Source of the DNA: a bacterium
GTDB lineage: Bacteria; Myxococcota_A; UBA9160; UBA6930
DNA length: 46,430 nt
Assembly (NCBI GenBank): GCA_024228115.1
Contig: JAAETT010000563.1
Location: 1-46,430 of the forward strand
Reading direction: 5' to 3'
How positions within the stretch are numbered: position 1 is the stretch's first letter; each line of letters opens with the position of its first letter. The position numbers and the translations under genes are program-made. Below the pieces are notes generated by a model. It was not told where the DNA came from and ran no database searches. It saw only the letters and a list, made by a program, of their open reading frames with translations. Below, one piece after another: positions 24,200 to 43,609 of the stretch.

Positions 24200-24607
24200 A
24201 TGGCCATCGATCTCACCGTGGTGACTCCGGAGGGCCAGGCCTTCCAGGGGGATGTGCAGAGCCTGGTGCTTCCTGGCGTCGAAGGCGATTTCGGCATCCT
24301 CGAGGGACACGAGGTCTTCATGACCAGCTTGCGTCCCGGCGAGATGCAGCTCGACACGGGCGGCGAGCTCTTGCGCGCCGCCGTCTCCAAAGGCATCGCC
24401 GAAGTCCACGAGGACAGCGTGACCGTGATGGTGGGCAGCTGCGAGTTTGCCCACGAGATCGATCTCGAGCGCGCCCAGATCGCCGCCGAACGAGCCAAGA
24501 AGCAGCTCACAGAGATGCGCGGCACGAAGAACGGCGAGGTACTCTACGAGGAGTACCAGGAGGCCTACTCCAGGGCCATCGCCCGGGTAGCGGTCTCCGA
24601 AAAGTAA
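24200..24607 (+). CDS. atpC: ATP synthase F1 subunit epsilon
   Basis: 135-residue epsilon subunit: N-terminal beta-sandwich (LTVVTPEGQAFQGDVQSLVLPGVEGDFGILEGHEVFMTSLRPGEM) and a C-terminal helical hairpin that can inhibit ATP hydrolysis. It begins five bases after atpD. The last codons Glu-Lys and the TAA stop lie within the left arm of the palindromic element at 24599-24696, so the extreme C-terminus appears to be supplied by the element. Genes for F0 a and c (atpB, atpE) are not in this window. Confidence 0.95.
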   Translation: MAIDLTVVTPEGQAFQGDVQSLVLPGVEGDFGILEGHEVFMTSLRPGEMQLDTGGELLRAAVSKGIAEVHEDSVTVMVGSCEFAHEIDLERAQIAAERAKKQLTEMRGTKNGEVLYEEYQEAYSRAIARVAVSEK

Positions 24608-24696
24608 ATCGCGGGGACGGAGTTTACAATTGACTTGTTTGGGGCAGAGCCCCCAAACAAGTCAATTGTAAACTCCGTCCCCGCGATTTACTTTTC
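24599..24696. repeat. Palindromic element E1: perfect 46-bp inverted repeat with 6-nt loop
   Basis: Arms 24599-24644 and 24651-24696 are perfectly complementary; the loop is CAGAGC. Each arm starts GAAAAGTAAATC, carries the core GCGGGGACGGAG, then TTTACAATTGACTT, and ends GTTTGGGG. The element fills the gap between convergent atpC and the MXAN_5187-like gene, and it provides the last two bases of that gene's TGA and the stop of atpC. It is the same family as 29223-29322 and 38436-38477. It could act as a bidirectional terminator; the structure suggests a mobile REPIN-type inverted dimer (inference). Confidence 0.95.
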
Positions 24697-25270
24697 AGGA
24701 CGAGATGGGGGTGGCTTTCACCTTTGCCTTGCCCGCTTCGACGACGACGCGGAACTTCACCTTTGCGCAGCCGTACTTCTTGCGGATCGCGGCTTCTTGT
24801 TTGGTGAGGACCTTGTCGAGCTTCTCGCGGGTGAGGCCGTTGGCGCCCTGCCCCGTCGAGCCGCGTGCGGTCACGTAGGCATCGAAAAGATCGTCCTTGC
24901 TCGGCCCCTTGTCGCGCACGAGCACGTCGCGCCGACGGTCCTTCGTCTCGTTTCGTTCGCGGTCGTGGAGGTTGGCCTTGAAGAGGTGTCGCTCATAGCA
25001 GCCCGCTTCGATCTTGCGCAGCGTGTCGTCCCAAAGCCGCTTGAACGTGAAGTAGCGTGAGCGCAGGTTGCCGAATTTGAAGCGGTGGCCGGTGTTGGTG
25101 AGCTGGCGGTTGGTGTAGGTCACCACCATCTTGTTCACTTCACCGCGCAGCATGTGCGGCTCGCGTTTGCGGCTGCCCAGGAAGTACTGGTCGTACTCGT
25201 TCTTGAGCTGCTTCATCTTGATCTCGATGAGCACGAGATCTTCGGCGATGTCGATGCCGAATTGGGCCAT
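24695..25270 (-). CDS. MXAN_5187 C-terminal-domain-like protein, function unknown
   Basis: 191 residues, highly charged, no signal peptide. The pattern IEIKMKQLKNEYDQYFLGSRKREPHMLRGEVNKMV followed by RFKFGNLRSRYFTFKRLWDDTLRKIE matches my memory of the family named after the C-terminal domain of Myxococcus MXAN_5187. The tail KVKFRVVVEAGKAKVKATPI also fits. The role is unknown; the helical, Lys/Arg-rich nature would suit a scaffold or nucleic-acid contact, but nothing here proves it. Its TGA stop overlaps the first bases of palindromic element E1. The downstream neighbour on the other strand is atpC. Confidence 0.7.
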   Translation of the reverse strand: MAQFGIDIAEDLVLIEIKMKQLKNEYDQYFLGSRKREPHMLRGEVNKMVVTYTNRQLTNTGHRFKFGNLRSRYFTFKRLWDDTLRKIEAGCYERHLFKANLHDRERNETKDRRRDVLVRDKGPSKDDLFDAYVTARGSTGQGANGLTREKLDKVLTKQEAAIRKKYGCAKVKFRVVVEAGKAKVKATPISS

Positions 25271-28049: not shown

Positions 28050-29135
28050 TCAGAAGCCCCGGGTGGGCCGCCCGATCCCGGGCTTCAGGATTTCGCCGTC
28101 GCCACCACGCAAGCGGAACTCGCCTTCCGGTGTTTCCGCATGCAGTGCGTCGTAGGCAGGGTTGCCGTCTACCTCGAAGCCCGCGTCGCGAATCATCCGG
28201 TAGGTATCGATCTCGTTGTCACCCCGGGTCGTGAGATAGCCGTCGACGAAGAGCGAGTTCGCAGGCCAGAGTGCCAGCGGACCGAGGCTGCGGATGTTGC
28301 CTTCTCGCCCGCCGGCGATGCGGACTTCGGCGGTCGGGTTGATGAGCCGCACCAGCGCCAGCGCTCGCAGGCAACGCTCCGGTGTGAGGCTGCCATCTTC
28401 CATCACCGGGTTGCCATCGATCGGGATCAGGAAGTTCACGGGAATGGACGGCACCTCGAGCTCGCGCAAGCGAAAGGCGACCTCGACGATGTCCCGGCTC
28501 TCCTCGCCCATCCCAATGATCAGCCCGCTGCACGGCTGGATGCCGGCTTTCTTGGCAGCGCGCAGGGTTTCCACTCGCTCCTCGTATGTATGGGTGCTGC
28601 AGACATCCGGATAGTGGGATTGGCTCGTGTTGAGGTTGTGGTTCAATCGGTCGAGGCCGGCGTCGGCGAGGATGCGCGCCTGTTCCTCGTTGATCAGGCC
28701 CGGCGAGACGCAGACCTCGATCGGGTAGGTTTCCTTTACCGTGCGGATCAGCTCCGCCAGCTTGCGGGTGTGTGCGAGGGTTGCCGCCCTGCCCGACATC
28801 ACCATGCAATAGCGCGAGGCCCCTGCCCGGGCGGCGGCTTCTGCTTCCGCCAGGATCTCCTCGTCGCTCTTCATCGGGTACTTGCGAATCGCCGCATCCG
28901 AGTTCTTCGACTGGGAGCAGTAGCCGCAATCCTCCGGGCACAGGCCGTTCTGCACGTTGTTCAGCACATGCACCATCACCTTGCGGCCGAAATGCTTCTC
29001 CCGCGGGGCGAAGGCCGCCTGCAACAAGGGCAGGAGTTGGACGTCCTCGCCGTCCAGGATCCAACCGGCGTCGCTCTCCGACGGTGCCTCTCCAGCCAGG
29101 GCCCGATCCGCCAGCCATGCATAGTGTTCGAACAT
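28050..29135 (-). CDS. bioB: Biotin synthase
   Basis: 361-residue radical SAM enzyme inserting sulfur into dethiobiotin. The SAM cluster motif C66-x3-C70-x2-C73 lies in NGLCPEDCGYCSQS; downstream motifs include SGRAATLAH, VCVSPGLINEEQARIL, HNLNTSQSHYPDVCSTHTYEERVET, PCSGLIIGMGEESRD and the second-cluster arginine region VRIAGGRE. The ATG at 29135 with GGGAGG five bases upstream is preferred over 29156. bioF and bioD follow; bioA and bioC/H are not in the window. Confidence 0.97.
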   Translation of the reverse strand: MFEHYAWLADRALAGEAPSESDAGWILDGEDVQLLPLLQAAFAPREKHFGRKVMVHVLNNVQNGLCPEDCGYCSQSKNSDAAIRKYPMKSDEEILAEAEAAARAGASRYCMVMSGRAATLAHTRKLAELIRTVKETYPIEVCVSPGLINEEQARILADAGLDRLNHNLNTSQSHYPDVCSTHTYEERVETLRAAKKAGIQPCSGLIIGMGEESRDIVEVAFRLRELEVPSIPVNFLIPIDGNPVMEDGSLTPERCLRALALVRLINPTAEVRIAGGREGNIRSLGPLALWPANSLFVDGYLTTRGDNEIDTYRMIRDAGFEVDGNPAYDALHAETPEGEFRLRGGDGEILKPGIGRPTRGF

Positions 29136-29165: not shown

Positions 29166-29195
29166 ATGTTACAAGTCCGCCTCGCCCCCCGTCAA
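29166..29195 (-). promoter_or_regulatory. Candidate promoter of bioB-bioF-bioD
   Basis: TTGACG (29195-29190), 18-base spacer, TAACAT (29171-29166) on the minus strand; transcription would begin near 29159, 24 bases before the ATG. The perfect 7-bp inverted repeat TCACCCT-gcacg-AGGGTGA (29199-29217) sits directly upstream of the -35 hexamer and is a candidate operator. Confidence 0.5.
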
Positions 29196-29222
29196 CCATC
29201 ACCCTGCACGAGGGTGACAGGG

Positions 29223-29322
29223 GAAGAGTCAACCAGCGGGGACGGGGTTTACAATTGACTTCTTTGGCGGGCACCCGCCAAAGAAGTCAATTGTAAACCC
29301 CGTCCCCGCTGGTTGACTCTTC
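29223..29322. repeat. Palindromic element E2: perfect 48-bp inverted repeat with 4-nt loop
   Basis: Arms 29223-29270 and 29275-29322 are perfectly complementary; the loop is GCAC. Arms begin GAAGAGTCAACCA, share the core GCGGGGACGGGG, TTTACAATTGACTT with E1, and end CTTTGGCGG. The inner ends differ from E1 in compensating pairs on both arms. The right arm provides the GA of the TGA stop of the methyltransferase gene. It lies downstream of that gene and upstream of the bio promoter, so it would insulate the two units if it terminates transcription. Confidence 0.95.
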
Positions 29323-29941
29323 AGCCTTTGGGCAGAGCGGCGCCTCGGTAGAGGGTGGCGAAGACGCGCGGGCCCTCGATCAGCTGTTCGAGGCGTTCGA
29401 GCTGGAAGCCGGCGCGCTCGACCATTTCACCCGTCTTGCGGTTCAGGTTGCAGCCGCAGCCGATCACGTTCCAGAGCGGGTTGATGCGGTCTTGCCAGCT
29501 GGCGACCTTCGCATCGTCGCTGCGGCCGTGTTCGATGAAGAGGAGCTTGCCTTCCGGACTGAGTACCCGGTGCATCTCCTTCAGCGCGGCGTGGGCGTCC
29601 GGGATGGTGCACAGGGTCCAGGTGACGGTCACCGTATCGAACCGGCCCTGGTCGAACGGCAGGGCGCCATCGGCGGGCAGATGGTGACGTTCGACCGGGA
29701 AGTCCACCGCGTCGATGCGCGTCTGGACCTTCTCTTGGAGCGCGTCCATCGGATCGACTGTAGAGAGCTTTTCCACGCCATCCGGGTAGTACCGGAGGTT
29801 CAAGCCCGTGCCGAAGCCGATCTCGAGGACGTCCCCCTTGGCTTCAGCCAAGGTCTCCTCGCGTTGGGGGCCGAATTTCCTCATCGCCCGGTCGAGGATC
29901 GGGGGGAAGAGGCGCTGCTCGTAGAAGTCGTAGAGACCCAT
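29321..29941 (-). CDS. Class I SAM-dependent methyltransferase
   Basis: 206 residues. SAM motif I is VLEIGFGTGLNLRYYP, with VDPMDAL as the acidic strand, FDTVTVTWTLCTIPDAHAALKEMHRVLSPEGKLLFIEHG as motifs II-III, and a conserved NPLWNVIGCGCNLNRKT. This fits the UbiE/METTL7-like small-molecule methyltransferases. Cys-Gly-Cys in the late motif is typical of the METTL7-like branch. The substrate is not predictable. It is divergent from radA with only 37 bp between them. Its stop codon is completed by element E2. Confidence 0.88.
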   Translation of the reverse strand: MGLYDFYEQRLFPPILDRAMRKFGPQREETLAEAKGDVLEIGFGTGLNLRYYPDGVEKLSTVDPMDALQEKVQTRIDAVDFPVERHHLPADGALPFDQGRFDTVTVTWTLCTIPDAHAALKEMHRVLSPEGKLLFIEHGRSDDAKVASWQDRINPLWNVIGCGCNLNRKTGEMVERAGFQLERLEQLIEGPRVFATLYRGAALPKG

Positions 29942-43521: not shown

Positions 43522-43540
43522 AGGTCAAGGCAACGCAACG

Positions 43541-43583
43541 GGGCGTTGCGCTCACCGGATCCCGGTGAACGCAACGCCCTTTT
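43541..43583 (+). terminator. Intrinsic terminator of the porin gene
   Basis: 18-bp stem with one mismatch (43541-43558 with 43562-43579), ATC loop and four T residues (43580-43583). Left arm GGGCGTTGCGCTCACCGG. It sits between convergent genes and may serve both. Confidence 0.92.
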
Positions 43584-43609
43584 GCGTTGGTATCGCGCTG
43601 GCGCCCGGT

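Follow-up and report, generated by a model that had tools for sequence, protein, structure and literature searches.

The closest described relatives of the element considered here are the REPINs of Pseudomonas fluorescens SBW25 (PMC3116915), which consist of two inverted units around a variable hairpin spacer whose changes are compensated on both sides, and which occur as dispersed copies, together with single-unit remnants (some formed by internal deletion) and a cognate single-copy transposase (RAYT). A second related group is that of the TIRYTs, which, as described in Di Nocera 2013 (PMC3733652), are RAYT-like genes flanked by terminal inverted repeats (TIRs) with the motif GGGGWSAS, some of these TIRs being dispersed as dimers in some genomes; Quentin 2018 (PMC6006769) places most TIRYTs in subclass 2.1, with a C-terminal helix-turn-helix (HTH) and with no REP found. 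Template switching is established elsewhere as a cause of compensated stems (PMC8794818; PMC6649704).

The palindrome E2, located in a window of 46,430 nt (the whole stretch of DNA that was analysed), resembles REPINs in each of the respects listed above. E2 is probably one member of a dispersed, non-autonomous mobile repeat of REPIN-like type, cognate to a TIRYT-like transposase encoded on contig C203 of the same genome, the arms of which are kept complementary by hairpin-templated copying.

Structure and setting of E2 and E1

The description of E2 as a 48-bp inverted repeat with a 4-nt loop agrees with the arms recovered here (Table 1), which lie 2 nt apart and, folded as a hairpin, give 48 pairs and the 4-nt loop. 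By length, E2 ranks first among the inverted repeats of the window and E1 (24599-24696; 46-nt arms, 100% complementary) second. As the preliminary description had stated, the two have a core in common, GGGGACGGRGTTTACAATTGACTT, and the outer and inner differences of E2 from E1 occur in both arms of E2. The window contains exactly four occurrences of TTTACAATTGACTT, one in each arm of E1 and E2, with no further site even at two mismatches (chance expectation at up to two mismatches, approximately 0.04). The predicted RNA fold of E2 has an energy of -102.8 kcal/mol compared with -37.7 kcal/mol in shuffles (z = -17.8). E2 also separates the methyltransferase gene from bioB, in line with its earlier reading as a separator, and at E1 the serine-glutamate-lysine end of the preceding gene is retained in genomes G001 and G002.

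Table 1. Positions of E2, E1 and adjacent genes in the window
Feature	Position	Strand	Remark
E2 left arm	29223-29271	+	49 nt, 100% complementary to 29274-29322
E2 right arm (inverted copy)	29274-29322	+	from inverted-repeat search of the window
E2 left core GGGGACGGGGTTTACAATTGACTT	29238-29261	+	signature of the repeat family
E2 right core (inverted)	29284-29307	-	
E2 outer stem GAAGAGTCAACCAGC	29223-29237	+	differs among copies; mirror at 29308-29322
E2 inner variable stem-loop CTTTGGCGGG-CA-CCCGCCAAAG	29262-29283	none	
E1 left arm	24599-24644	+	first bases are the final codons of the + strand gene before it (GAA AAG TAA)
E1 right arm	24651-24696	+	last bases fall in the stop codon of a convergent gene (24695-25270)
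Class I methyltransferase gene	29321-29941	-	stop codon overlaps E2 arm end by 2 bp
bioB	28050-29135	-	downstream of E2, same strand; NCBIfam bioB E 7.5e-109

Two further features of the window are recorded separately. The third strongest inverted repeat (43531-43589; 28 nt, 89% complementary, 3-nt loop) is unrelated to the E1/E2 family. Positions 29189-29221 carry GTCAACC-N14-GGGTGACAG, a motif that occurs once in the window, is conserved in G000-G003 in the gap separating bioB from its upstream neighbour, and overlaps the region's sole sigma-70-like promoter match; it resembles a BirA operator.

A dispersed repeat family linked to a transposase gene

Within the window's own genome (G000; 6.41 Mb, 700 contigs), a DNA search combined with an exact pattern search (74 half-sites) identified at least 52 copies of the E2 family, 39 of which were extracted as complete two-armed elements, the remainder being single units or cut by a contig end. 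The family consensus reads AAGTCAACnAGC-GGGGACGGRGTTTACAATTGACTT-variable stem (often GTTGAAAGGGGGC)-loop-inverse, with core-to-core lengths in classes of 57, 61, 70-71, 75 and 77-79 bp. All of the assemblies compared are fragmented, and 13 of the 52 copies lie no more than 80 bp from a contig end where approximately 1.1 would be expected, as might be the case if the palindromes were fold-back chimaeras of assembly. That they are such artefacts is extremely improbable, given that complete copies have different unique flanks on each side and that copies recur at the same sites in the assembly of another species, and the excess is itself explained by the tendency of real long hairpins to break short-read assemblies. 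At four loci (L075, L099, L119 and L120), truncated copies pass without a gap into TCTGCCTATCCGA..., which seems to be the terminus of a different repeated sequence inserted into the palindrome.

Two Y1 proteins of RAYT type are encoded in G000, on contigs C203 and C653. The C203 protein (approximately 300 aa, with a possible C-terminal HTH) contains HVH and YVCRNP motifs and passes the PF01797 cut-off (Y1_Tnp, E 2.9e-10), with a match to NCBIfam REP_Tyr_transpos (E 9e-14) that falls below the curated cut-off of that model. A possible C-terminal HTH or DnaA-C-like domain, as in subclass 2.1, is represented by sub-cut-off matches only, to HTH_23 (E 0.009) and to Bac_DnaA_C (E 0.004 in the paralogue and 0.018 in the orthologue). 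A PDB sequence search with the transposase returned no match, and a scan of named genomes returned one relative, apparently the same as G004. Nine additional weak Y1_Tnp matches in G000 (L049-L057), covering profile positions 21-86 only, form another Y1-like group.

The C203 gene has a family hairpin copy immediately upstream, within which the contig ends, and a partial copy downstream. Its orthologue in G004, a third species, is 70% identical, collinear over 2.7 kb including the neighbouring gene, and flanked by 48-nt terminal inverted repeats (88%) carrying GGGGCCGGAGTTAAGAATTCACTT, from which a G004 repeat family with that core was predicted. Half-sites with the GGGGCCGGAGTTAAGAATTCACTT core number 24 in G004, with one near-variant in G000 and none in G001-G003, and E2-type half-sites, of which G000 has 74, are absent from G004. 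Contig ends fall inside the hairpin at most of the G004 sites, but C436 holds one complete copy, which is palindromic throughout and shares the spacer GTTGAAAGGGGGC; at the positions of E1 and E2, too, G004 contigs break off only a few bases away. This species-specific matching of repeat and transposase is the strongest evidence linking the two. The C653 gene (L083, 4873-5900) is the second RAYT-type gene and is flanked by the inverted sequence GCGGGGACGTTCTTTCCGCTGTTTCCGTT, with its own terminal inverted repeats GCGGGGACGTTCTTTCC..., and has a counterpart in G003 with the same ends. A G001 gene has GGGGACGTTG variants, and the flanking inverted repeats in G001 measure 29 nt (93%). Counting against this pairing, the 90% complete assembly of G003, a genome that bears the E2-type repeat, yielded a single RAYT match, which is of the other type, and none of the type that corresponds to the repeat.

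Comparison among species revealed both filled and empty sites. The bio site has no element in G001 or G002, the C313 site is empty in G003 and G004 and the C503 site is empty in G003, while at L127 the element is present in G003 with only an end remnant in G000. The family may have been mobilised by the C203 transposase. In a separate case, 3.5 kb with a 1144-aa reading frame lies between two family copies on C540 (L149, 2184-5683); in G003 the outer flanks join at a single unit, indicating that this segment was gained or lost between the repeats.

With flanking genes called by a codon-usage gene model, the 39 copies for which both neighbours were called comprised 26 between convergent, 11 between co-directional and 2 between divergent genes, and the distance from flanking stop codon to element edge was between -40 and +20 bp in 70 of 73 cases. 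Sixteen genes end at a TGA inside an arm (distance -34), their frames entering the arm and stopping at this internal codon with tails such as KSTSGDGVYN. Dedicated bidirectional intrinsic terminators without a mobile origin would be expected in such positions, at the 3' ends of genes and between convergent ones, and the G+C-rich hairpin of such terminators is present at E2. However, there is no U-run directly after the stem on either arm of E2, a consensus terminator scan gave no call at E1 or E2 and an Rfam search of the E2 region gave no match. Further, the repeat borders a transposase gene and varies in step with it from species to species, and of 379 genomes sampled from the phylum just 2, each belonging to this genus, have it; all of this makes a purely terminator origin very unlikely. 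The elements might still affect transcript ends or act in termination.

The symmetry of the elements extends slightly beyond their repeated sequence. Past AAGTC it holds in 23, 25, 24 and 15 of 36 cases against 9, 15, 14 and 11 expected, an excess that ends approximately 4 bp into the unique host flanks, with none beyond across copies, and five copies have symmetric runs of 6-10 in host flanks. At C313 the right-hand TTACTC is host DNA, since the unoccupied site of G004 has it as well, and its inverse in the left arm, GAGTAA, is missing from the left flank of the unoccupied site. The GAAAAG on the left of E1 belongs to the host gene's conserved 3' codons and reappears in mirror image on the right. 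One tentative explanation, read from these few cases, is that the TIRYT-driven palindrome integrates where host DNA pairs with its end, or copies a few host bases into its far arm, giving a perfect hairpin that includes 3-4 host-derived bp, with the arms then kept identical by ongoing copying. The pairing of a tail with a complementary target proposed for REPINs (PMC3116915) resembles such host-derived symmetric ends.

Concerted change of the two arms

The preliminary description had proposed that the arms evolve together and not by random drift, a proposal that can be judged from arm identity within and between elements. In the inner stem, arms were identical at 378 of 387 positions (97.7%) within elements compared with 67% between elements of equal length, a match reached in none of 10,000 shuffles with re-paired arms. 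The inner arms of the 77-bp class agreed at 192 of 195 positions (at most 169 in the best of 10,000 re-pairings), the outer 13 nt matched at 450 of 481 positions within elements (mean of 325 on re-pairing), and single-base length differences (AACCAGC versus AACAGC) were mirrored in both arms. The opposing pattern, uncorrelated differences between arms, was looked for and not seen, mismatches being rare (22 in total across the 39 two-armed elements); 14 of these are G-T pairs on neither strand and 3 are wobble pairs on the read strand, showing no bias towards wobble.

The sister species G003, of the same genus, carries the same elements at the same sites as G000, in flanks that are approximately 82-90% identical. 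Across five sites that are two-armed in both species, 211 of 242 aligned pair columns were unchanged, 21 differed symmetrically and 10 asymmetrically, so that the orthologues, too, differ mainly by changes in both arms. The symmetric differences include mirrored 3-bp length changes and two blocks in which the inner stem was length-changed or replaced, and the 21 columns are therefore not 21 independent events. Ten clear single-base symmetric changes could be read from the alignment, comprising six transversions and four transitions.

These comparisons bear on how the arms came to be so similar. A core that is nearly identical in all copies would be accounted for if a few perfect master copies had spread only very recently, but the inner and outer stems vary widely among copies while matching within them, and at least five two-armed copies are common to G000 and G003 and have changed symmetrically since; this highly improbable alternative is already contradicted unless the shared sites are independent insertions. 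For the same reason, the earlier suggestion of recent dimer formation as a cause is insufficient alone, while its other suggestion, copying of one arm from the other, is favoured by the transversion-rich symmetric changes.

A different possibility is that the mobile repeat is the same but that its symmetry is maintained by selection for base pairing, as an RNA hairpin or as a transposase substrate, through ordinary compensatory mutations. The hairpin is indeed very stable, and the authors of the REPIN study reported compensatory spacer changes and proposed selection on hairpin capacity (PMC3116915). However, transversions, for which no G-U intermediate exists, make up six of the ten clear symmetric substitutions that separate the orthologues, and length differences of one and three bases occur in mirror image. 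Wobble pairs on the read strand account for just 3 of the 22 current mismatches, and a single mismatch would hardly weaken a hairpin of 48 pairs. Maintenance by selection is thus considered unlikely. With six of ten changes being transversions, G-U intermediates would be a hard route and one-arm copying an easy one, favouring arm copying by template switching over G-U-mediated compensation as the probable source of the symmetric changes.

Other sites hold only one unit in G003, E1 (GAAAAGTAAATCGCGGGGACGGAGTTTACTTTTC) and E2 among them. The one-armed G003 copies at E1, C14 and C175:23691 fit the G000 copy minus a stretch between direct repeats of 5-8 bp, whereas such a deletion fits poorly at the E2 site because the outer sequence differs; the same comparison at C424 gave no alignment. 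Turnover between one-armed and two-armed states does occur at the same site and may reflect loss or gain of an arm.

Under the preferred reading of a mobile repeat with hairpin-templated copying, the basic unit would be a short stem-loop with GGGGACGGRGTTTACA(ATTGACTT), and the full element two inverted units around a variable stem-loop spacer. The C203 transposase, a Y1/HUH RAYT of TIRYT-like type, presumably acts on the repeat in its folded, single-stranded form, which it would recognise and then copy or move. Copies established at gene 3' ends, mostly between convergent genes, would then persist at the same sites across species splits. Replication template switching, or mismatch repair in the extruded hairpin, may transfer a mutation from arm to arm, such that differences from copy to copy appear in both arms, and slippage involving short direct repeats within an element (TTGACTT, or TTTAC/GTAAA) could convert two-armed elements into one-armed ones, or the reverse.

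Comparison with described repeats and transposases

The E2 family is best filed as a TIRYT-linked, REPIN-like repeat and not as a GTAG REP. Inverted pairs able to form a hairpin, as in REPINs, are present as 39 complete pairs, and a cognate RAYT flanked by the same repeat is found at C203, with a variant pair in G004, but the 5' GTAG tag is absent from the consensus unit. The family also differs from REPINs in being an almost perfect palindrome throughout, spacer and outer stem included, in its different core and in the size and possible C-terminal HTH of its transposase. Nor does it match CGTC-tagged REPs, in which an 8-9 bp stem has an unpaired tag at one of its ends, since CCGTCCCC is internal to the arm and base-paired when both arms are present.

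As in the TIRYT/TIRtron arrangement outlined in PMC3733652, a Y1 HUH transposase lies between long inverted repeats with a GGGG-rich motif (in G004, G001 and C653, and at C203 with a full copy upstream and a partial one downstream). The TIR motif GGGGWSAS itself is not matched in full, GGGGACGG at C203 fitting seven of eight positions with one mismatch and C653 and G001 carrying GGGGACGT. This arrangement probably corresponds to TnpA_REP subclass 2.1 (PMC6006769), to which the transposase of the E2 family may belong. In contrast, arm co-evolution, sites shared between species and a repeat exchanged along with the transposase orthologue are not described in the available text of PMC3733652 and PMC6006769. 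The family bears on how REP-type repeats move and on what the TIRYT branch of domesticated transposases acts upon, one transposase locus in two species being able to pair with two repeat families whose core changed as a set.

Joint change of inverted-repeat arms, and perfect palindromes kept as such over time, are likewise known from quasipalindrome correction and template switching (PMC8794818, PMC7202029) and from the concerted inverted repeats of Nematomorpha mitochondria (PMC6649704). Those cases concern RNA genes, reporter loci and coding repeats, whereas the family described here is linked to a transposase and offers approximately 50 natural replicates, which, together with the sister-species orthologues, provide a replicated test of DNA copying against selection for perfect palindromes.
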